Positions 10,132 to 26,057 are shown, counted from the stretch's first letter. The stretch: 46,149 nt of DNA from Sulfurimonas sp. (GCA_013791885.1 VMSZ01000049.1:1-46149); one strand, 5' to 3'. Numbers and translations are program-made. Notes: generated by a model not told the origin, from the letters alone.

Positions 10132-12288
10132 ATGAGAAAAAGTTGGGTTATAGCAATGGGTATAGTAGTGTTCACTTTAACACTACATGCTAACGAGTCA
10201 GTAGAGCAAATGGAAGACTTTCAATCACTTCTGAGCGAGGTGAGTGAAATAGCCACCAAAAAATCTTTAAATGTAGATTATCTTCCTTCTGTTGTGACAG
10301 TAGTTGATGCTCAGACTTTTGTTGATGGCGGGATTCAAAATCTTGGTGAGGCTCTTGGAATGCTTCCGGGCATTCAGGTGCAGATTAACCAGATGGGTTA
10401 CACTATGACGACGGTACGCGGCTTTAAAAATCCTAATGCCTATCTTTCAGACAAGATAAAAATTCTTATCGACGGCGTGGCAATTAACAATGCAGTTTCA
10501 GGGACAACAAGTTTTTATATGGACTTCCCGATGCAGCTTATTGAAAAGATAGAAGTGCTTCGCGGCCCGGCTTCAACGGTTTACGGTGCAGGCGCATTTT
10601 ATGCCACGGTCAATGTTATAACAAAACTCGGCAACGCTAAAAAAGAGAATCAAGTTTTTGTAGGAGCAGGGAGCTACGGCTACAGAACTGTTGGGGGAAA
10701 TCTCTTTGCAAACGCAGGTGATTGGAAGATTTTTAGTGACGGGTATTATCAGACGAATACAAAAGAGCTCTATTTTGAACCACAAGACGGCTATACGGAT
10801 GAAGGTATGAGAGATTTGTCTCTTGGGTTTAAAGCGCAAAATGGCGGTTTAGAGTTTTTGGCAAGATTCAAACGCAGCGTTTACGGAAATTTTTATAGTT
10901 TTGAGGGAGAGCTCGATCCTATTCCCCAAAAAGGCGAAGAACACATTAACACTTACTTTTTTACGCAGCTTGCATATAAACACAGTTACAATGACTATGA
11001 GTTTGAAACCAAGGCAAATTTTTCACATAGAGAGTTGGATACGAGTGCAAATATATATAGCATAGGCAGTCAGATTGGTAAATTTTCTTCTGTTGGTATA
11101 GATATGCAGGATGGATTCTTTTATTATGAGAAATCAGCCGAGCAAAACTATGCAATTGAATCCAGCGTAAGACTTCCTGAAATAGCTTCTAATGATATCT
11201 CTCTAGGAGTTGGTCTGCAATACGCTGCTGTGCGAAAAGATGAGTTTTTCAGCAGCGTGGAAGATGCTATTGTAAGTTCGGCAGACCCTTTAGCTCTGAG
11301 AGATGACCCTTCTTTTCGTTATCGTCTTAATAAAGAGCCTGCGTTTTGGACATCTTATGAAAATGGAGAAGTCGGACATCTTTTAGACGGCGGGAATAGT
11401 GTAACAAGAACAAATGTGTATGCGTATGCACAGGATCTCATCTCTGTAAGTGACGCTGTGGATGTGATTCTTGGACTGCGTTTAGACAATTACTCAGACT
11501 TTGGTTCGCAGTTGAGTAAAAGAGCAGGTATAGTTTACAGAGCAAATGATGAATTGATTTTTAAAGTTCTTTACGGCTCAGCATTTCGTGCGCCGACTTT
11601 TATGGAAGCGTACCAAAACGGACATATAAACTTTCGTGCGGGTGATGAAAATATAAAACCGGAAGAGACAAACACGTATGAGGCTGTCGTTATCTATTCT
11701 CCGAACTTTTATAATAGATTTTCTCTCAATGTATTTTATTCTGAACTCACTAATGTTATAGATCTCGAAGAGTTTCAAGATACTAATCCAGGCTATCAAA
11801 ATTTCGACAGACGCCTGAGCCGCGGTGTGGAGTTTGAATATAATTACAAAACGAAACTTGCACATAACTTCTACTTCAACGCAACCTATATAGATGCGGG
11901 TTATACCATACCGGCAGAAGACGGCCAGCCTGCGGTAAATGTCAGTATGCCTGATATCTCAGATGTGATGCTCAAAGCCATGTACATCTACACGCCTATA
12001 AAAGCGCTCTCTTTTGGAACAACTTGGAGATATTTTGCTCAAACAACATCCACAGAGTTGGAGTGGGTACTTGAAGAAGCTGATGAGTATGATGCAACGG
12101 CAAAAGCTGTGCATATTTTTGACGAAACCGTAACATACAGACTTTCTCCCTCAAGCGAAATCCGTGCGACCGTTAAAAATCTCTTTGACGCAGATGTCCG
12201 CATGCCGGCCTATTATTACTACACTGCCGATGGCGGAATTCAGAGAGAAGGCAGAAACTACTTTGTGAGTTATGTTCACCGCTTTTAA
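10132..12288 (+). CDS. TonB-dependent outer-membrane receptor
   Basis: 718 residues: signal peptide 1-20 (ending LHANE), plug domain at about 45-160 (SVVTVVDAQTF, LGEALGMLPGIQV, TVRGF, KILIDGVAINN, IEVLRGPASTVYGAGAFYATVNVITK), then a 22-strand barrel ending in YFVSYVHRF with the usual terminal phenylalanine. It has HmuR/BtuB-like length, and the substrate (siderophore, haem, cobalamin or other) cannot be told from sequence. A strong CAGGGGGC ribosome site precedes the ATG. It is divergent from a YfiR/GGDEF pair; TonB receptor, DUF4154 and GGDEF genes recur together in marine and sulfur-oxidising bacteria, suggesting ligand uptake or sensing linked to cyclic di-GMP. Confidence 0.93.
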   Translation: MRKSWVIAMGIVVFTLTLHANESVEQMEDFQSLLSEVSEIATKKSLNVDYLPSVVTVVDAQTFVDGGIQNLGEALGMLPGIQVQINQMGYTMTTVRGFKNPNAYLSDKIKILIDGVAINNAVSGTTSFYMDFPMQLIEKIEVLRGPASTVYGAGAFYATVNVITKLGNAKKENQVFVGAGSYGYRTVGGNLFANAGDWKIFSDGYYQTNTKELYFEPQDGYTDEGMRDLSLGFKAQNGGLEFLARFKRSVYGNFYSFEGELDPIPQKGEEHINTYFFTQLAYKHSYNDYEFETKANFSHRELDTSANIYSIGSQIGKFSSVGIDMQDGFFYYEKSAEQNYAIESSVRLPEIASNDISLGVGLQYAAVRKDEFFSSVEDAIVSSADPLALRDDPSFRYRLNKEPAFWTSYENGEVGHLLDGGNSVTRTNVYAYAQDLISVSDAVDVILGLRLDNYSDFGSQLSKRAGIVYRANDELIFKVLYGSAFRAPTFMEAYQNGHINFRAGDENIKPEETNTYEAVVIYSPNFYNRFSLNVFYSELTNVIDLEEFQDTNPGYQNFDRRLSRGVEFEYNYKTKLAHNFYFNATYIDAGYTIPAEDGQPAVNVSMPDISDVMLKAMYIYTPIKALSFGTTWRYFAQTTSTELEWVLEEADEYDATAKAVHIFDETVTYRLSPSSEIRATVKNLFDADVRMPAYYYYTADGGIQREGRNYFVSYVHRF

Positions 12289-12303
12289 AAACGCGGTGAC
12301 TCT
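12276..12303 (+). terminator. Terminator after the TonB receptor gene
   Basis: TCACCGC (12276-12282) pairs with GCGGTGA (12293-12299), followed by CTCTTTT. The stem spans the stop codon and could also serve the converging DAB operon. Confidence 0.55.
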
Positions 12304-12304
12304 T

Positions 12305-12604
12305 TTACATCATGTGTGTGTCGGTAATAAACATCACGCCAGAATGTTTCTCAAAAAAGAGGGCAAGCCCTTCGCTTATTGTTTCAGCTTTGGCTTCATC
12401 AACTACGGTCATAATCATGACAAGGGCGTCTTCATCATTAAATAGCAGCTGTCCTTCATGGTAGCCTGCGTTTCCTCTGCCCTCAAGGTTACGAAAAATT
12501 GTATAACCTTGAATTTCTATTTTTTCGAGTAGTCTTGTTAGGTGTGCTAAAAACTCACCCTCAATAATCATCTCTACTTTTTTCATTTTTTTGAGGTTTC
12601 TCAT
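12305..12604 (-). CDS. PII-like protein of the DAB operon
   Basis: 99 residues with a PII/GlnK-like ferredoxin fold pattern: KKVEMIIEGEFLAHLTRLLEKIEIQGYTIFRNLEGRG, then a short T-loop region, LVMIMTVVDEAKAETISEGLALFFEKHSGVMFITDT. It lacks the long uridylylated T-loop of nitrogen-type PII, as do the bicarbonate-associated groups (carboxysome CPII, SbtB). The expected role is to gate the DabA/DabB carbon pump in response to adenine nucleotides or bicarbonate; this is inference. Its ATG overlaps the dabA stop by four bases, so translation is coupled. It is the last gene of the operon. Confidence 0.72.
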   Translation of the reverse strand: MRNLKKMKKVEMIIEGEFLAHLTRLLEKIEIQGYTIFRNLEGRGNAGYHEGQLLFNDEDALVMIMTVVDEAKAETISEGLALFFEKHSGVMFITDTHMM

Positions 12605-15600
12605 GCTCTGTTTTCTCCTTGTGTAAATGTTTTAAATTCAAGTTTTTCCCAAGTTTGTGTGTTACCTTCATAGAGGAAAAACGCAGTCTCTTTTTCATCT
12701 ATAAAAATGGTTTTTATCCATTCGTTGTATACAAGTTCGCTTATTTTGTGAATCTTGTCTATAACATTTTTATGCGTCTCAAAAGGTGCTTCTATCATGG
12801 TGATTAAACGCAGCGGCTCATGATAAGGCTCATTTTCCAAATTTACTGTTTGTGAGGGAAGACCGGTTCTAAGGTCGCTCATATTTCCTGAAATAACCCC
12901 GAGTTTTCCGACAACATTGTGGTAAACCTTGCTCTCACTTCCAAAAGCACTATTGTCTAGTGTAGAAAAAAAGTGTTCCATATTAATCCACTCCCCGACA
13001 ACGAGAGGACCGGATAAGATAACGCTCAAAATTGCCCCTTTTTTGTCGCCCGTATAATCATAAGAATGTAAAAAAGTCCTTCCTGCTAAATTCATATTTT
13101 TCGAGTTTTCACGTTTTCCTATGAAAAAGGAGTGGTTTTTAGAGAGTCCCCATTCGGGCCTTGGCTGTGACCAATCCATGGTGTTTCTCTTAGCTAAAGA
13201 AAAAGCGCCCTGTTTGCTCCTTGTGTTCGAAAGAGGCAGAGTTGCCATACGTTCAGCGGCAGTTAGCATGCCGGCAAGCTCCAAATCTGCTTTGAGTTTT
13301 TTCAGAGCTTCATGATGGGAGTGCGGAGCATGTGCGTCAAAAAGAGTTAAAACATCGCTGGTAGTGTTGTGAAGCGCCGCTATGAAATAGGTCTGCTCAG
13401 GAATATGAATTCCATGTTTATGAAGTTCTTCGCGTATATTTTGTTTGTTTGCCATATAGGCGAGAACCTTTGCGTTTATAAGTGAACTGCTTCCTCCGCA
13501 GGCTCCGCAATCAAGTGCGGATTCATAAGGGTTGTTTTCTGATTGGCTTGCATGGGCGGACAAAACCACAATATCGCAAAAGCTCTTGAGCCCGACAGTT
13601 TTAAGTGCGCTTTGAACATAATACAGCTGCTCTTTGAAGCTAAAGCCAACCTTGGCCATTTTTGCTTTTTGAATGCGCATATGACCGGCTGAAACCTTGT
13701 ACTCTTTGCGCAGAAGCTCTATGAGTCTTTGTTCTTCTATCTGTAAAAGATTGTATTTTGCACCGAGTTTTGTCACAGAATCTATGGCTACGCCGTCTTG
13801 GTCTTCTTGAACTATGTCTTCTTTGCTGAGGGCTATCTCTCTGATTTCGTTGAGAATTTCATCGTCAAGCGAAGATGGTTTAATGTTAAACTTCTCTTCT
13901 ATAACAAACTTGATAATCTGGTTTTGTATAGCGGTAATACTCTCTGTCGCCTCTTTTTCGGTATAACGCTCTATGCGAAGTTCTTCCTCAACCTTGGGGT
14001 CAAAGATTTTTTTTCTCAAAGGCATGTAGGCTTTTGGCACTAAACTTTTACCAAAAAAATCAAAGGCAAAGAGAGCACCGATGGCTTCGACGGTAACGTA
14101 AGGAGTGAGAACATTGTATTTGAGTTCGTTTAAAACTTTTTTGACAATTTTCATCAGTCCCTTGGAGTTAATGGCCTCTTTTTCATGAAAGCTGTAAACG
14201 ATGTGTTTTGGCGTGAGTATTGCCGGACACAAGTCCGATTCGCATCTGTTACTAACATCAATGGATTTAAAAGGAATCCCGAAAAAACCTGCCATGCCGT
14301 AAGTCTCGTAAGCACCTGCAGCTTCGATGTTTCTGCGTATGCGTTCTGAACGGGTATCTATACAGAAAAAGAGTTGGGCATCAGAGCTATTTACCTGCTC
14401 TTGCGTTTTTTTGCTCTGAACATAGTCGCTCATGAGCTGCATCATGCTGGTTTTTTCCATCGCTTTGAGCCAAATAAAACCCTCTTCATCCTCGAAATCC
14501 TGCAAGGCTGCGTTTATAGCGTTGAGTTCTTGAGCTTGCAATGTTTGTATCTGCTCTTCCTTGAGAACAAGAGAAAGAACTTTGTAGAGATACTCTGCAA
14601 GGACCTCGCAGTCATGGATTTTTTTGTCATAAATATATTGGTCGTAAATCTCTTTGGCATCTGTTTTTTGTGTTTCGTGCAAAAAGTTCTCAACACTTTG
14701 AAAATAACTTAAAAGAAGTTTTCCGCTGTTATACTCAGCTCGTAAAAAGGCCTCTTCTTTGTTGTTCATAATGTAACTTCCAAGCTCTTTCATACTTGGA
14801 AAAAAGCCCAAAGAATTTTCCTGCTTTTTTAAAAGCATATAGGAGTAGTAGAGGCGTATAGCCAAAAATTCTTCCATAAAAGCAGGATATTTTTTCTGGT
14901 ATTCGCTTGAGCTCTTGCTTCTGTATTTTAAAAAACCGCTCCAACCGTGAAGTTTTGTAAGTTCAAGTGTAAAGTACTCTTCCCAAAATGAGCGTGGAAT
15001 CTTGAGCTCTTTTAGAACCATGAAAATGATGTCTTCCGCAAGTGCTGTTTCCCGTAAAAGTCTGCAGAGGGTTTCGTTTTCATTGAAAAAAACTTTGTCC
15101 TGCATGACTATCTCTTTCCAAGATAAAAACATCCCTTTTTCACGTTTTGGCATGTTCCAAATGGCTTGTCCTTCACCCAAAAAACGCATAGCAATCTGCG
15201 ACATAATGTCATCAAGCGCTTCTCCCACGTTGGTGGCAAAAAGCATATCGACTACATCATAGATAGTTTTTTCTTTGGCAAGGTGTTTGACAAGGTTTGC
15301 ATTAAAATCAGCATAATCGTTAAGAGACTCAGGAGAGAGATTTTTGGCTATTTGAGGGATGAGAGGGCTCACGTTTGTTATCTCGTCAAAATGGTGGCAC
15401 TCCCGTGACTTTGTCATAAGCTGTATGAAAAGATTTTCCAGAAGAGGATGGGTGTGTCCGCATTTTGTGCCAAAGTTTTCTAACTCTTCTCTAAGATACA
15501 TATCCTCAATTTTGCCCTCTTGGTAAAACCTCTGGTACTGCTCTCTGGTGAGGGATTTTTTTGCATGAAAGAGCGTATGCGCCTTATTTACGGCTTCTTC

Positions 15601-15735
15601 AAAATGCATATTTTCAAAACCGTGCAACGGATTGTGGTGAATAAAAGATTTCATAGGCCAAAAGTTTGGAATATGCTCAACAGCACTCTCAACGAGTGAA
15701 TCTATGAAAAGAATATCTTTTTCTTTTACGATCAT
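12601..15735 (-). CDS. dabA: DabA, inorganic-carbon transporter subunit (DUF2309)
   Basis: 1044 residues, the large cytoplasmic subunit of the DAB complex. The N-terminus (WPMKSFIHHNPLHGFENMHFEEAV) is typical of DUF2309. The carbonic-anhydrase-like zinc site is complete: C458 and D460 in FFCIDTRSER, H728 in LSAHASQSENNPYES and C743 in DCGACGGSS. DabA hydrates CO2 to bicarbonate vectorially when driven by its membrane partner, concentrating inorganic carbon for CO2 fixation. It has four-base overlaps with both the upstream membrane gene and the downstream PII gene. Length and motifs are intact, so it should be functional. Confidence 0.93.
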   Translation of the reverse strand: MIVKEKDILFIDSLVESAVEHIPNFWPMKSFIHHNPLHGFENMHFEEAVNKAHTLFHAKKSLTREQYQRFYQEGKIEDMYLREELENFGTKCGHTHPLLENLFIQLMTKSRECHHFDEITNVSPLIPQIAKNLSPESLNDYADFNANLVKHLAKEKTIYDVVDMLFATNVGEALDDIMSQIAMRFLGEGQAIWNMPKREKGMFLSWKEIVMQDKVFFNENETLCRLLRETALAEDIIFMVLKELKIPRSFWEEYFTLELTKLHGWSGFLKYRSKSSSEYQKKYPAFMEEFLAIRLYYSYMLLKKQENSLGFFPSMKELGSYIMNNKEEAFLRAEYNSGKLLLSYFQSVENFLHETQKTDAKEIYDQYIYDKKIHDCEVLAEYLYKVLSLVLKEEQIQTLQAQELNAINAALQDFEDEEGFIWLKAMEKTSMMQLMSDYVQSKKTQEQVNSSDAQLFFCIDTRSERIRRNIEAAGAYETYGMAGFFGIPFKSIDVSNRCESDLCPAILTPKHIVYSFHEKEAINSKGLMKIVKKVLNELKYNVLTPYVTVEAIGALFAFDFFGKSLVPKAYMPLRKKIFDPKVEEELRIERYTEKEATESITAIQNQIIKFVIEEKFNIKPSSLDDEILNEIREIALSKEDIVQEDQDGVAIDSVTKLGAKYNLLQIEEQRLIELLRKEYKVSAGHMRIQKAKMAKVGFSFKEQLYYVQSALKTVGLKSFCDIVVLSAHASQSENNPYESALDCGACGGSSSLINAKVLAYMANKQNIREELHKHGIHIPEQTYFIAALHNTTSDVLTLFDAHAPHSHHEALKKLKADLELAGMLTAAERMATLPLSNTRSKQGAFSLAKRNTMDWSQPRPEWGLSKNHSFFIGKRENSKNMNLAGRTFLHSYDYTGDKKGAILSVILSGPLVVGEWINMEHFFSTLDNSAFGSESKVYHNVVGKLGVISGNMSDLRTGLPSQTVNLENEPYHEPLRLITMIEAPFETHKNVIDKIHKISELVYNEWIKTIFIDEKETAFFLYEGNTQTWEKLEFKTFTQGENRA

Positions 15736-16487
15736 CCTAAGTTTACCTCCATAAATATAAATCCGATGCCGACACTCAGAAGATAAAGAAAGACTAAAAA
15801 TATTGTTTGCAAGGGTGATAAATCTCTGTAATGAAGTTTTCTTTGAGCAACTCCATAGATGAGTTTTTCAATAAGAGTAATCCCTGACCAGCTGATAAGC
15901 AGCCAAGAGATAACGATGGCAATAAGATAGTAGATGTCAAACTTCACTACTTCTTCAATAAATATCCTGAAACCCGGAAAATAGGGTGTGAAGATAAGCG
16001 CGACAATGGATATGACAAGCAAGACGGAAAACCTCGGCATAACATTGCCAAGCCCTTTAAAAGCTTTAAAATACGTAGTTTTAAACTGTTTGTCTAAAAA
16101 CGCAACAAGGAATCCAAAACCTATAATCGGGAGGATAAACGCAATGAAAAAGACCGACATCTCTCCATCTACGGATTTCCACAGCCATGCAAAACCGGAG
16201 ATTGTGCTGTAGTAGAAGATAAGGTAACTATAGGCATGACTTACGCTTAAAAGGCGCAACGCGTAAAACATGGTGCTAAAAAGTGCCACAACCGATATGG
16301 CCACTATAACTGTTTGATTTTCATAACTGCTTAAAAGAAGTGCGCCTGTAAAAAACATGGAGGAAAGCACAAACAAAAGCATGAGGCCTTTAAATTTACT
16401 CAGTATAAAATTGCTCAGCATGCTAAATGGAAATATTGGAAGTAAAAAAAGTACAGCCAAGGTTGTAAGCAGTTCTTCTAACATCAA
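15732..16487 (-). CDS. Small antiporter-like membrane protein in the DAB operon
   Basis: 251 residues with about seven or eight membrane segments, lying between dabB and dabA. I do not recognise a named family. One part (GNVMPRFSVLLVISIVALIFTPYFPGFRIFIEEVVKF) resembles the discontinuous-helix region of NuoM/MrpD-type proton channels, where P, G, F and E positions are conserved. It may therefore be a shortened antiporter-like subunit and a third component of the carbon pump. The overlap with dabA is four bases and the gap to dabB is five bases. An unrelated accessory protein is possible; the operon position is the firmest evidence. Confidence 0.6.
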   Translation of the reverse strand: MMLEELLTTLAVLFLLPIFPFSMLSNFILSKFKGLMLLFVLSSMFFTGALLLSSYENQTVIVAISVVALFSTMFYALRLLSVSHAYSYLIFYYSTISGFAWLWKSVDGEMSVFFIAFILPIIGFGFLVAFLDKQFKTTYFKAFKGLGNVMPRFSVLLVISIVALIFTPYFPGFRIFIEEVVKFDIYYLIAIVISWLLISWSGITLIEKLIYGVAQRKLHYRDLSPLQTIFLVFLYLLSVGIGFIFMEVNLG

Positions 16488-16492
16488 GGCTC

Positions 16493-18193
16493 CTAATATT
16501 TAAATTTTGTATTGAGTCTCAGGGAAAGACTTTTAAGTTTGAATGAGACTAAGGAAATCATATCTAAGATGTAAAATTCTCTCGAGAGTGTTTTATAAAT
16601 AAAGTGGTAAAAACCTGTGAGCTCATTTATTTTTATTTTACGTTTTTCTTCAGAGTAAAAGGCAAAAATCCATCCCACAATGACTAAAAACAGAGCGATT
16701 GAAACAATGGCGTAAAAGAGCAGCTCAGGAATTGCAGCCGATGCAAAGATGGCGCTGCTTAACTCTTGATTGGTATAAATAATCCCGCCAAACCAGTGCT
16801 CGATACTCAAATATGCAACAATGGCTACAGAAAAGAGAAGCGTAGTCAAAAAGAGCATAACCCACATTTTGCTCAAAACTGAGCGGTAGACGGAGAAGAT
16901 AGCCTGCGCTCCCGTGAGCCATGCAAAGAAGAGGAGGATGACATCACCCTGAAAGTGCATAAGCCCTCCGCTGAGCCAGACATAGATGCCCACAACAATG
17001 GCCATAGGTGCTACGGTTGTTAAAATAGCATGAATAAACCAAGGGGTTCTGTCGGTATCTTCTTCGTTAAAGAAGAAGTTAAAGTAGGATTTTCCACTGA
17101 TATTTGGGGCTTTTCTTGCATTGTGAATGACATCGCCAGAACCCAAAAAGAGAGTCGCTTTAAAGAGTCCATGGACTATGAGGTGATAGACAGCAAGGGC
17201 AAAGGCGCCAACGCCAATTTCAAGCATCATGTAGCCCATTTGCCCGATTGTGGAGTAGGCCAAAGATTTTTTGACATCGTTTTGTACAAGCATCAAAGCA
17301 GAACCGATGACGGCGGTAATGAAACCGACGAAAAACGCCAAGTGCAGAGCAAAATCGGCATGAACAAAAAGCGGAGCAAAGCGGTTAATGAGAAAAGCTC
17401 CTGCGTTTACTATTCCTGCGTGCATAAGTGCAGAAGCCGGATTTGGACCTTCAAGCGTGTAGGCAAGCCAGATGTGAAAGGGAAACTGGGTTGATTTAAT
17501 GAGTGCGGCAAGCATGATAAGCAGACCGATAACTTGAAGTGAAGAGACATCAAACCAAAATATGCTGATATTTTGCACTTCCATTGTATTGATTGCGTTT
17601 AGAAAAGTATGCAAATCCAGCGTTTTGTAGTAGTCAAAAATAAGATAAATGGCGAAAAAGAGAGGAATGTCTGCCAAGAGATGGGTAAAATAGGTGTAAA
17701 AACCATACTTGTAGGTCTTTTCTCTTTTGTAGTTGTGTACAAGAATAAAATAGAGATTGAGCCCGATAAGGTGCCAAAAAGCCAAAATAACAATAATATT
17801 TCCAGCAAACAAAAGCGATAAAATTATACCGATCATCATATCGAGCAGGATAAAAAAGCGTATATATCCCTCTTCATCGTACATGTATTTGATAGAGAAT
17901 TTATGGACAACGAGTCCTACCAAACTTACAAATATGCTCATAACAATAGTTAAAGAGCTAATGTTTAGCGTGTAAAGGGTATTTGCAAAGAGGAGTTTTT
18001 CACTCAGTGAATTTTCATAAAAAAGATAGCCCAGAGAAAGAGCACCAAGAAGTGTCAAAAGTGAAAAAAATATTGAAATTTTATATGAAGCTTTGCCTAA
18101 AAATTTAAAGCTTAGCAAGAGTATTAATGCAGATAAAAACGGTAAGGCGAGCAGGGCATACGTCAGAGTGGTGAATTGGTCGTCAAAAGTCAT
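16493..18193 (-). CDS. dabB: DabB, proton-conducting membrane subunit (NuoL-like)
   Basis: 566 residues with about fourteen membrane segments, related to complex I NuoL and Mrp antiporter subunits. The conserved channel block IKSTQFPFHIWLAYTLEGPNPASALMHAGIVNAGAFLINRF (about residues 220-260), the following KKSLAYSTIGQMGYMMLEIG and the HGLFKATLFLGSG segment carry the expected lysine, histidine and glutamate positions. Beside DabA it is identified as DabB, which lets protons drive CO2 hydration, rather than a respiratory complex I subunit; no other nuo genes are nearby. It is the first gene of the operon. The upstream 170 bases contain several possible -10 boxes, none decisive. Confidence 0.88.
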   Translation of the reverse strand: MTFDDQFTTLTYALLALPFLSALILLLSFKFLGKASYKISIFFSLLTLLGALSLGYLFYENSLSEKLLFANTLYTLNISSLTIVMSIFVSLVGLVVHKFSIKYMYDEEGYIRFFILLDMMIGIILSLLFAGNIIVILAFWHLIGLNLYFILVHNYKREKTYKYGFYTYFTHLLADIPLFFAIYLIFDYYKTLDLHTFLNAINTMEVQNISIFWFDVSSLQVIGLLIMLAALIKSTQFPFHIWLAYTLEGPNPASALMHAGIVNAGAFLINRFAPLFVHADFALHLAFFVGFITAVIGSALMLVQNDVKKSLAYSTIGQMGYMMLEIGVGAFALAVYHLIVHGLFKATLFLGSGDVIHNARKAPNISGKSYFNFFFNEEDTDRTPWFIHAILTTVAPMAIVVGIYVWLSGGLMHFQGDVILLFFAWLTGAQAIFSVYRSVLSKMWVMLFLTTLLFSVAIVAYLSIEHWFGGIIYTNQELSSAIFASAAIPELLFYAIVSIALFLVIVGWIFAFYSEEKRKIKINELTGFYHFIYKTLSREFYILDMISLVSFKLKSLSLRLNTKFKY

Positions 18194-18363: not shown

Positions 18364-19716
18364 ATGAATTTAAAAGAACTAGAAAACAAAACCATACTTC
18401 TCTTTGGTAAAAGCCGTGCCTTCAGCTCTGAAGAGTTTGAATCGCAGATGCGCCACCATAAAATCACTGTTCTTAAAGAGTACAGCGATGAGGTAGTTTT
18501 AAGTATTGATGGCAGGATGATGACGCCTTATGAGCAAAACGCGAGTGATGATTTGTATGAAAATAAAAACATCAAAAGCATTTCCATAGATGAACTTGAA
18601 CGTGCATTAGCAAAAGAAATTGATGCAGATGTTTTACTTATGAGTCTCAAACTTTCTCATGATAAAGAGCGGCTCAAAGCTTTTATAAAAAACACGATGA
18701 TTAGTGATGAACTCTTTTTCAGACTTCTCAAGATGTACGCATGGGACGGCGAAGATTTTTTTGAAAATGATGACAACCGTGATGTCACAGCAGCACTCAT
18801 TGGACGTTTTTACGAAAATATAGAACGCAACCACAATGTTCAGTACGCAACCTTAGGTTTGATGCATCTTGTAGCCCAGTGCAAGAATGAAAAGCTCATA
18901 GAAACCATTGCTTTACTTGAACCTCTGCAAAAGAGTTTAAACGCCAAGAAAAACAGTGCGAACTTCGCGATTGTCACAGCCATAGCAAAGCATCCTAAAA
19001 CGCCAAAGTCTGTTTTGAAAACGTTTGTAAAAAAAGCAAATACTTACGTGCAGACCTTGATTGCTTTGAGAGAAAATTGCGATGCGATGATGCAAGAACA
19101 ATTGTTCATTGAGTCGGATGAGAACGTGTTAGAGGCACTTTCACGTAATGCTAACTTAGACAAAGCAATTGTTAAACAGCTCCTGAGCAAAGAGAGATTT
19201 GCGAAAAATATAGGGCAATTTATTCGTTTAGATGAAGAGCTTTTTGAACTTTTGTTTGAAAAGTATGCTTTGGTCTTGGCTGCAAATGAGTCACTAACGC
19301 TTGAAATGCAAGAGCGGCTTTACCAAACGCAGAGTGAAGAAGTGAAGGCGATTCTTGGAGCAAACTCTTTGCTTCAAAGAGAGATTATAGAAAAACTCTC
19401 CCAGGAGGAGAGTCAAATCATAAGTTCGGCTTTGTATGCAAACGCACAAACGCCTCATAAAATTTTGCAAGAAGCTTATGCAAACGCAGCCAATCACACA
19501 GCTTTGGCAAAAAATTCAAATACTCCTGAGGAGATTTTACTTTTGCTTGGACAAAGCGAGGAAACGCAGATACTTGCAGCTTTGGCGAAAAATGAAAGCA
19601 CACCCGTTGAAGTTTTGTACCAACTCCAACTCGATAGCAGATTTGAGCGTTTAGTAAAAGAAAACGCAGCCTTTGGCAAACATATACAAACACAAAATAT
19701 AGGTTGGATGGTATAG
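18364..19716 (+). CDS. BRCT-like / leucine-rich-repeat-variant protein
   Basis: 450 residues, no signal peptide or membrane segment. Residues about 6-80 (KTILLFGKSRAFSSEEFESQ, VVLSIDGRMMTPYEQ, SISIDELERAL) have the strand-helix spacing of a BRCT domain; this is a moderate call. From about 195 to 440 the protein is built of helical repeats of the LRV/HEAT type, clearest in ALAKNSNTPEEILLLLGQ and AALAKNESTPVEVLYQL. These scaffolds bind proteins or nucleic acid. The gene immediately precedes, and is probably co-transcribed with, the MoxR ATPase gene. The function is unknown; a substrate adaptor for the ATPase is one idea. It contains four AAACGCAG words within 350 bases. Confidence 0.65.
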   Translation: MNLKELENKTILLFGKSRAFSSEEFESQMRHHKITVLKEYSDEVVLSIDGRMMTPYEQNASDDLYENKNIKSISIDELERALAKEIDADVLLMSLKLSHDKERLKAFIKNTMISDELFFRLLKMYAWDGEDFFENDDNRDVTAALIGRFYENIERNHNVQYATLGLMHLVAQCKNEKLIETIALLEPLQKSLNAKKNSANFAIVTAIAKHPKTPKSVLKTFVKKANTYVQTLIALRENCDAMMQEQLFIESDENVLEALSRNANLDKAIVKQLLSKERFAKNIGQFIRLDEELFELLFEKYALVLAANESLTLEMQERLYQTQSEEVKAILGANSLLQREIIEKLSQEESQIISSALYANAQTPHKILQEAYANAANHTALAKNSNTPEEILLLLGQSEETQILAALAKNESTPVEVLYQLQLDSRFERLVKENAAFGKHIQTQNIGWMV

Positions 19717-19718
19717 CA

Positions 19719-20708
19719 ATGAAAGCATCAGAATTAACACTCACCATAAGCGCACTCGTAGAACAAAAAGTTCCCACATTTCTTTGGGGCGCACCGGGCA
19801 TAGGCAAATCTTCGATTGTTAAACAGATAGCCGATGAAAAAGACATAGGTTTTATAGACCTGCGTTTGTCGCTTATGGACCCGACCGACCTTAAAGGAAT
19901 TCCTTTTTATGACAAAGAGAGCCACACGGCACTGTGGGCGCCGCCTGCGTTTTTGCCAAGCAAGGGCGAGGGAATACTCTTTTTAGATGAACTCAACTCC
20001 GCGCCGCCTTCGGTTCAGGCTTCGGCGTATCAGCTCATTCTTGACCGTAAAGTAGGCGAATACACGCTTCCTGATGGCTGGGCAATTGTAGCCGCCGGGA
20101 ACCGTGAGGGCGACAGAGGTGTAACCTACAGAATGCCCGCTCCTTTGGCAAACAGGTTCGTGCACTTTGAGATGGAAGTGGATGTTGATGACTGGCGTTT
20201 GTGGGCGTACAAAAAAGAGCTTGATTCAAGAATCATTTCTTACATCTCTTACAAGAGTGAACATCTGTTCACATTTGATGCAAAGAGCGAAAATAAGAGC
20301 TTTGCAACGCCTAGAAGCTGGGAGTATGTCAACAGCATTCTTAAGAGCGGGTTGAATGAGAGTTTGGTATTAAACGCAATAAGCGGAGCGGTTGGCAAAG
20401 AGGTGGCTGTGGGCTTTTTGAGTTTTGCAAAAGTTATGAGCAGACTGCCTGACATTGAGTCAATTCTCTCAAGCGCTGAGGGCGATTACCCAGAGGAGAT
20501 AGATGTCCTTTATGCTCTGAGTACGGGGCTTGTCAGCGCTGTTTTAAGAGACAAAGAAAAGCTGGACAATCTGCTCAAATACACGCTAGGTCTCAAGGGC
20601 GAATTTGCCGTGATGATAGTCCAGGATTTACAAAGAAACGGTATCGTAATGGAACATTCAGAAGTTTATAAAGAGTGGGTGAGAAAGTTTATGTATCTCT
20701 TGGAATAA
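19719..20708 (+). CDS. MoxR-type AAA+ ATPase
   Basis: 330 residues from the ATG at 19719 (MKASELTLTI). An in-frame ATG at 19704 overlaps the previous gene and is the alternative. Walker A is WGAPGIGKSSIVKQ (about residues 26-39), Walker B GILFLDELNSAP and sensor 1 VAAGN, all intact. Cytoplasmic MoxR ATPases act as chaperones that remodel or load metal or cofactor into targets, usually together with a von Willebrand A (VWA) protein. Here the likely VWA partner lies 4.2 kb downstream at 24894, beyond a GGDEF-EAL gene and a divergent membrane gene, which is an unusual separation. Confidence 0.88.
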   Translation: MKASELTLTISALVEQKVPTFLWGAPGIGKSSIVKQIADEKDIGFIDLRLSLMDPTDLKGIPFYDKESHTALWAPPAFLPSKGEGILFLDELNSAPPSVQASAYQLILDRKVGEYTLPDGWAIVAAGNREGDRGVTYRMPAPLANRFVHFEMEVDVDDWRLWAYKKELDSRIISYISYKSEHLFTFDAKSENKSFATPRSWEYVNSILKSGLNESLVLNAISGAVGKEVAVGFLSFAKVMSRLPDIESILSSAEGDYPEEIDVLYALSTGLVSAVLRDKEKLDNLLKYTLGLKGEFAVMIVQDLQRNGIVMEHSEVYKEWVRKFMYLLE

Positions 20709-24893: not shown

Positions 24894-26057
24894 TTGAATC
24901 CATTGGACAAAAAAATCTCTCAGGCAAAAGCAAAACTTTTGGTTGATTATCCTTATTTTGGAACGCTTGCTTCAAAGTTGGAGCTTGTTTTGAATGACAA
25001 CATAGAGGCCTTTAAAGGTGATGGAAAAAAACTTGAGTACAGCGGTAATTTTTTAGATAACGCAACGATTTCTGAATTGGAATTTATTTTGGCAAACGGG
25101 GCTATGCATGTCTCACTTGCACACGAGAGCCGAAAAAACGGACGCAGCGGGTGGTTGTGGCAGATGGCGACAGACATGGCCATTAACGATATGCTTGTAG
25201 AAAACGGCCTTGATTTGCCTTACGGAGCGCAGTACAGAAAAAGATTTCAGGGGATGTACGCGGAAGAGATTTATGCCGAGCTCAAGTCAGATATGATTCG
25301 CGAAGAGGACAATCTGGAGTATGAAGCAGATGATGCAGGGGATGTTCAAAACAAAGATAACAAACAAAAAAATAAAGAAAATGCAGAGAACCAAACGCAG
25401 TTAAGCCAAGAAGAACAAGAGGCACTGTTTCAAGAAGAACTGCTTCAAGAACAACTCTTAGCCGAGGAAGCAATCTCGCTTTTAGAGAGAGAGTTCAAAA
25501 AAGGGGAAGCTCCTGCGCAGATAGAGCGGTTTTTTAAGATTGATTTTATTGGCAAAATAGACTGGAGAGATGAACTGAAATCTGCTATTGACAGACATTT
25601 TAAAGATGACTACACACTTTTACCTCCGAGTAAAAAACTCATCTCTCAGGGAATTTATCTCCCATCTAATGTGAGTCAGACTTTTAGAATAGTCGTTGCC
25701 ATTGACAGCTCCGGTTCCATAGATGAAATACTGTTGAGTAGTTTTTTGAGTGAAGTGAATTTTTTAATGAGTATGGTAGCAAGGTATCAGATTGAGCTTT
25801 TGGTGTGTGATGAAAAAATTAAACTCCATAAAACTTTTTACAGCGGGGAGGCACTTGAGTGTGAAGTCAAAGGTGGAAGCGGAACCGACTTTCGGCCTGT
25901 GTTTGCGTTTATAGACAAAGAATTTGATGATGTGAAGTTACTTTTATATTTTACAGATTTACAAGGAAACTTCCCACCGCAAGCGCCACAATATGAGGTA
26001 AAGTGGGTGAGCCCAAAAGAAGTAGAAGTTCCTTTTGGCGAGCTAATCCTGCTGTAA
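24894..26057 (+). CDS. VWA protein with DUF2201-type metallopeptidase-like domain
   Basis: 387 residues, starting at TTG (no ATG fits; CAGGG lies upstream and the first residues, KAKLLVDYPYFGTLASKLEL, match the usual family start). Residues about 1-125 form the putative metallopeptidase domain (DUF2201_N), but the expected HExxH is replaced: the sequence is NGAMHVSLAHESR, keeping only the distal histidines. A charged, glutamine-rich linker (about 140-190) leads to a VWA-like domain with an intact MIDAS motif DSSGS (VVAIDSSGSID) and GGSGTDF. Such proteins normally partner with a MoxR ATPase, here the one at 19719. Catalysis is doubtful; a binding role is more likely. Confidence 0.8.
   Translation: MNPLDKKISQAKAKLLVDYPYFGTLASKLELVLNDNIEAFKGDGKKLEYSGNFLDNATISELEFILANGAMHVSLAHESRKNGRSGWLWQMATDMAINDMLVENGLDLPYGAQYRKRFQGMYAEEIYAELKSDMIREEDNLEYEADDAGDVQNKDNKQKNKENAENQTQLSQEEQEALFQEELLQEQLLAEEAISLLEREFKKGEAPAQIERFFKIDFIGKIDWRDELKSAIDRHFKDDYTLLPPSKKLISQGIYLPSNVSQTFRIVVAIDSSGSIDEILLSSFLSEVNFLMSMVARYQIELLVCDEKIKLHKTFYSGEALECEVKGGSGTDFRPVFAFIDKEFDDVKLLLYFTDLQGNFPPQAPQYEVKWVSPKEVEVPFGELILL

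Follow-up and report, generated by a model that had tools for sequence, protein, structure and literature searches.

Four genes of the 46,149-nucleotide stretch of Sulfurimonas sp. DNA analysed here (the window) very likely encode a DAB1-type inorganic-carbon pump, in which mem, a membrane protein encoded between DabB and DabA, would act as a structural third subunit and CPII, a P-II-like protein, as an accessory regulator. The pump itself is known; what is new is the recognition that mem corresponds to one half of an antiporter-like subunit, together with the presence of CPII beside DAB1 genes in hosts without Rubisco.

ORF calling placed all four genes on the minus strand in the order dabB, mem, dabA and P-II gene (Table 1). 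The ORF coordinates confirmed the tight packing that a sequence-only reading of this DNA had described, with a gap of five bases between dabB and mem and four-base overlaps (ATGA) at both mem/dabA and dabA/P-II. Since an ATG directly follows the TTG of mem, this gene starts at either 16487 or 16484. The operon is flanked by a convergent gene for a TonB receptor and a divergent gene for a repeat-like protein. The TonB-receptor gene ends at 12288 and has the hairpin of Table 1 in common with the CPII gene; this hairpin lacks a long U run, so that termination at it is put forward as probable. The Pfam matches are not due to chance (E-values of 3e-228 for DabA, 2e-19 for P-II and 2e-47 for Proton_antipo_M) and, together with the conserved site residues, bear out the identification of the operon as a DAB system.

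Table 1. Features of the DAB1 operon, in coordinates of the window.
Feature	Position	Strand	Details
dabB, NuoL-like proton-conducting membrane subunit	16493..18193	-	566 aa; PF00361 and PF00662
mem (third subunit)	15732..16487	-	251 aa; TTG or ATG start; assigned from fold, profile and fusion
dabA, beta-carbonic-anhydrase-like cytoplasmic subunit	12601..15735	-	1044 aa, long DAB1 form; PF10070
DabA C458, zinc ligand (DabA2 C351), with D460 and R462 next	14362..14364	-	alignment
DabA E550, counterpart of DabA2 Glu444, the essential finger-helix residue	14086..14088	-	alignment
DabA H728, zinc ligand (DabA2 H524)	13552..13554	-	alignment
DabA C743, zinc ligand (DabA2 C539)	13507..13509	-	alignment
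CPII, P-II-like signalling protein	12305..12604	-	99 aa; PF00543, PDB 5d4n
Hairpin 3' of the CPII gene, probable operon end	12276..12299	-	-11.9 kcal/mol, z -3.5

The site of DabA reads C458-x-D460-x-R462 ... H728 ... C743, with C458, D460, H728 and C743 found at the positions previously claimed for the zinc ligands and R462 completing the Asp-Arg dyad. In our alignment the zinc ligands, the dyad and the finger glutamate are invariant in 30 DAB1 and four DAB2 proteins, and the window DabA matches DabA2 of PDB 9rd0. Using the DAB2 residue numbers and roles given in PMC13144422 for comparison, E550 aligns as a finger glutamate of the DabA2 type, and its insertion into DabB is predicted. Likewise, DabB keeps all seven positions matching DabB2 S256, H260, K310, S316, H339, H343 and K347, the single exception among the NuoL-like channel residues being DabB2 R182, which is a Leu in the window. 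In the DabA tree the window protein groups with DAB1, apart from DAB2; the nine Campylobacterota sequences form one group (support 100) adjoining Aquificota (99), and branches are long.

A homologue of these proteins, MpsAB of S. aureus, has been proposed to be a Na+/HCO3- symporter (cited in PMC13144422), and the window operon might encode such a symporter instead of a CO2-hydrating pump. We consider this very improbable because the hydration-site residues and, DabB2 R182 aside, the DAB2 proton-pathway residues are all kept in the alignment. By analogy, our best guess is that the window pump shares the proton-driven, one-way hydration of DAB2. DabA, a zinc protein resembling beta-carbonic anhydrases, would hydrate CO2 to bicarbonate in the cytoplasm, and proton flow through DabB and the finger helix of DabA (E550) would make this hydration one-way, as proposed for DAB2.

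On its own, the window mem protein received no name from Pfam, NCBIfam or PDB sequence searches, and it does not reach the Pfam gathering score for PF00361, which weakly matches two of 38 mem orthologues (best E 0.001). A profile of these 38 orthologues retrieved its own family together with NuoM-, NuoN- and NuoL-like ORFs, with the matches running across their C-terminal halves. The predicted fold (AlphaFold, pLDDT 90) aligns over all 250 residues with the C-terminal halves of NuoM/ND4 (VIA-align Z 23-28), corresponding to a stretch that starts near residue 190-230 and ends near 460-500, and also with the equivalent region of NuoL, MrpA and formate-hydrogenlyase chains (overall Z 22-28, rmsd 2.2-2.9). 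Judged from fold and profile, mem is the C-terminal half (TM7b-TM14) of an antiporter-like subunit of the NuoM/NuoN type. It retains the C-terminal-half fold and residual sequence of NuoM/ND4, NuoN, NuoL and MrpA/D but, unlike them, it lacks TM1-6 and the proton-transfer residues: the TM7b Lys, TM8 Lys, FPxH His and TM12 Glu are not kept in the family, and the TM7b motif K-x-P-x-F-P-x-H of antiporter-like subunits has become L-P-x-F-P-x-S. Helix numbers for mem positions follow those of Complex I. Given the loss of these Lys, His and Glu residues, mem is classed as a degenerate relative of PF00361 and not as an antiporter; its few conserved polar residues are R78, R152 and D222.

The half of NuoM whose fold is seen in mem holds the TM9-13 half-channel, and a full-length NuoM-like gene occupies the place of mem in some long-DabA operons of the order Burkholderiales, so mem could be an active second proton-translocating module, with DAB1 moving more protons per CO2 than DAB2 and working as a steeper pump. 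With TM1-6 absent and the proton residues not kept across the family, this is distinctly improbable. A half-antiporter that has lost its proton residues could also act as a scaffold, and mem might then be an assembly or stability factor instead of a permanent subunit. This seems unlikely to us, since in two Aquificaceae (L036 and L039) a natural fusion joins mem to the DabB C-terminus (residues ~555-783; E 2.5e-19 and 2.3e-16), making it a permanent part there. A model of the fused DabB-mem protein, built from DabB rows only, reached a pLDDT of 65, too low to reveal the docking mode of the half-antiporter. On the basis of its constant neighbourhood and of the two fusions, mem is very probably a true subunit, and we infer that it stands permanently beside DabB in a structural or coupling role. 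Most likely, it would lie packed against DabB and help the long DabA to seat.

When one genome per species was scanned, 68 loci emerged, spread over Pseudomonadota, Campylobacterota and Aquificota. Some 60 genomes besides the window's have the cassette, in most cases with overlaps like those of the window: at nearly all loci on a long enough contig, dabA is preceded by a mem relative and followed by a P-II gene, and a start codon overlaps the mem stop in 50 of the 61 mem ORFs from related loci. One locus (L032), whose contig ends soon after dabA, gave no P-II hit. Occurrence of the extra genes apart from dabA, which the sequence-only reading had named as evidence that would count against it, was looked for, and mem was found without dabA in none of 150 Campylobacterota genomes and in none of 200 genomes from the order of Thiobacillus thioparus. 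In the latter set, mem occurs in eight genomes, each time directly beside a long dabA, and a DabA match above the cut-off was obtained in 40 genomes. Among the 150 Campylobacterota, dabA and mem were both present only in the window's own genome; the impression that hardly any other genome of the phylum has DabA was, however, overturned by denser sampling of its family, where DabA appeared in 14 of 151 genomes.

Plasmid NC_007959 of Nitrobacter hamburgensis contains two copies of the four-gene cassette. Gene order and close spacing match the window for all four genes; identity to the window is 36% for DabA and 25% for mem, and the window CPII is 39% identical to the Nitrobacter CPII. A tblastn search of plasmids with mem gave no match, although this plasmid carries a diverged mem.

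Individual loci showed further particularities. All six Thiohalocapsa loci (L034, L048, L050, L051, L053 and L062) have dabA in two ORFs, split at about residue 90-148 in window numbering. At L055, [NiFe]-hydrogenase genes precede the DAB1 operon and a B12/radical-SAM gene and hypF come after it; ORFs of matching size lie upstream and directly downstream at L007. In a Sulfurospirillum genome, a beta-carbonic anhydrase gene (L010:4825-5487) is found directly before the DAB1 operon. Four loci from the order of Thiobacillus thioparus (L086-L089) contain a full-length NuoM-like gene, a long dabA (~1100 aa) and then dabB, with a further antiporter-like gene after dabB at L088 and a SulP-type transporter gene upstream at L086, L088 and L089.

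The best PDB match of the window CPII is 5d4n (E 2e-22), the CPII of Thiomonas, and the protein that was crystallised shows full identity, across 107 residues, to the product of the fourth gene in a Thiomonas intermedia DAB1 operon (L043); CPII is therefore the DAB1 operon's own P-II protein. Compared with the T. intermedia protein (PDB 5d4n and others), its best relative among solved structures, the window copy has diverged: it has A46 and Q52 in the P-II T-loop region where 60 and 61 of 63 relatives, respectively, keep a near-invariant His, so that its ligand response could differ. The CPII at the Sulfurospirillum locus (L010:11120-11428) also lacks both histidines. CPII proteins bind adenylates. 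Wheatley et al. 2016, going by its title, reported that CPII is regulated by bicarbonate.

The regularity of the P-II-like gene as an operon partner held up in the related loci. It lies strictly after dabA across Pseudomonadota, Campylobacterota and Aquificota, and its start codon overlaps the dabA stop in 51 of the 60 dabA genes that have one. This strict position argues against the idea that CPII signals carbon status elsewhere, for instance in nitrogen metabolism, and is only co-expressed with a pump that it does not regulate, an idea that we regard as rather unlikely while acknowledging that DAB1 is active in E. coli without CPII (PMC7714395), that CPII-DAB binding is not documented in the DAB literature examined, and that sister operons in the window's own family lack the gene. 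In that family, DabB, a mem relative and a DabA of 961-983 aa occur in seven relatives with no adjoining P-II gene, and in the six genomes checked none was found within several kilobases on either side of the dabB-mem-dabA operon. At L101-L106, this sister three-gene form consists of dabB, a diverged mem and a shorter dabA (about 960 aa), with no P-II gene. The presence of mem without CPII in the window's family indicates that mem is core and CPII accessory. Thus, the earlier suggestion that both extra proteins are built-in parts of the pump survives for mem, a constant neighbour with natural DabB fusions, and fails for CPII, which is missing in sister operons and dispensable in E. coli (PMC7714395). 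We favour CPII as an accessory regulator, probably matching pump activity to the levels of bicarbonate and adenylates.

The window genome contains ATP-citrate lyase and no Rubisco, as do the six other Campylobacterota with DAB1 that were tested (6/6). Rubisco was likewise absent from the four Aquificota tested, three of which gave weaker Citrate_bind matches, and it was present in seven of eight DAB1 Pseudomonadota, the eighth genome being small and probably incomplete. Because DAB1 hosts include bacteria with Rubisco and bacteria with ATP-citrate lyase, the cassette serves both cycles, and 'carboxysome-associated', the label given to CPII, is too narrow for a protein whose gene is also found behind those of DAB1 where the host lacks Rubisco. 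In the window host, bicarbonate would feed the reductive TCA cycle and not a carboxysome.

Tentatively, and with somewhat less than even confidence, we suggest that DABs might form a graded series of Complex-I-like arms: none extra in DAB2; a proton-dead half-antiporter in DAB1, fused in some Aquificaceae; and, in some genomes from the order of Thiobacillus, a full NuoM-like protein accompanied by one more antiporter-like protein. If this were true, the half-antiporter would have been retained for coupling or anchoring, and the CPII-bearing DAB would be a bicarbonate-gated version for both the reductive TCA cycle and carboxysomes.

The sequence-only reading had taken the layout for a new arrangement and characterised DABs for systems of DabA and DabB only. 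The same gene order was already published in 2015 for Halothiobacillus neapolitanus, where a NuoL gene is followed by genes for a putative transmembrane protein, a DUF2309 protein of 1046 aa and a homologue of P-II/SbtB (PMC4633670). Its DAB1 has been described as a 'three-subunit' DAC in which Hneap_0908 is the additional transmembrane protein (PMC13144422, 2026), and dabAB1 plus the interstitial gene, which was assigned to the mrpA family (PFAM 00361), complement carbonic-anhydrase-free E. coli without the rest of the operon (PMC7714395, 2020). This published composition contradicts the restriction of DABs to two components.

We considered the MoxR-like gene (19704-20708) and the VWA-like gene (24894-26057) of the window as counterparts of CbbQ and CbbO, but they have no relatives at other DAB1 loci and the resemblance is therefore treated as coincidence.

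Among known systems, the DAB2 of H. neapolitanus (Hneap_0211-0212; PDB 9rd0) has the zinc site, finger glutamate and proton path seen in the window, whereas it consists of two subunits, with a DabA of ~830 aa and no third membrane protein. The window shows the traits of DAB1, that is, a long PF10070 DabA with the C-x-D-x-R/H/C site, a NuoL-like DabB and the interstitial mem. From published descriptions (PMC4633670, PMC13144422), the DAB1 of H. neapolitanus (Hneap_0907-0909 and the P-II gene) has the same gene order and a DabA of ~1045 aa; its neighbours are carboxysome genes, cbbQ and cbbO, and its host uses the Calvin cycle, whereas the window genome has ATP-citrate lyase and no Rubisco. In all, the window operon is a further member of the known DAB1 kind, and one that clarifies its previously unnamed third subunit.
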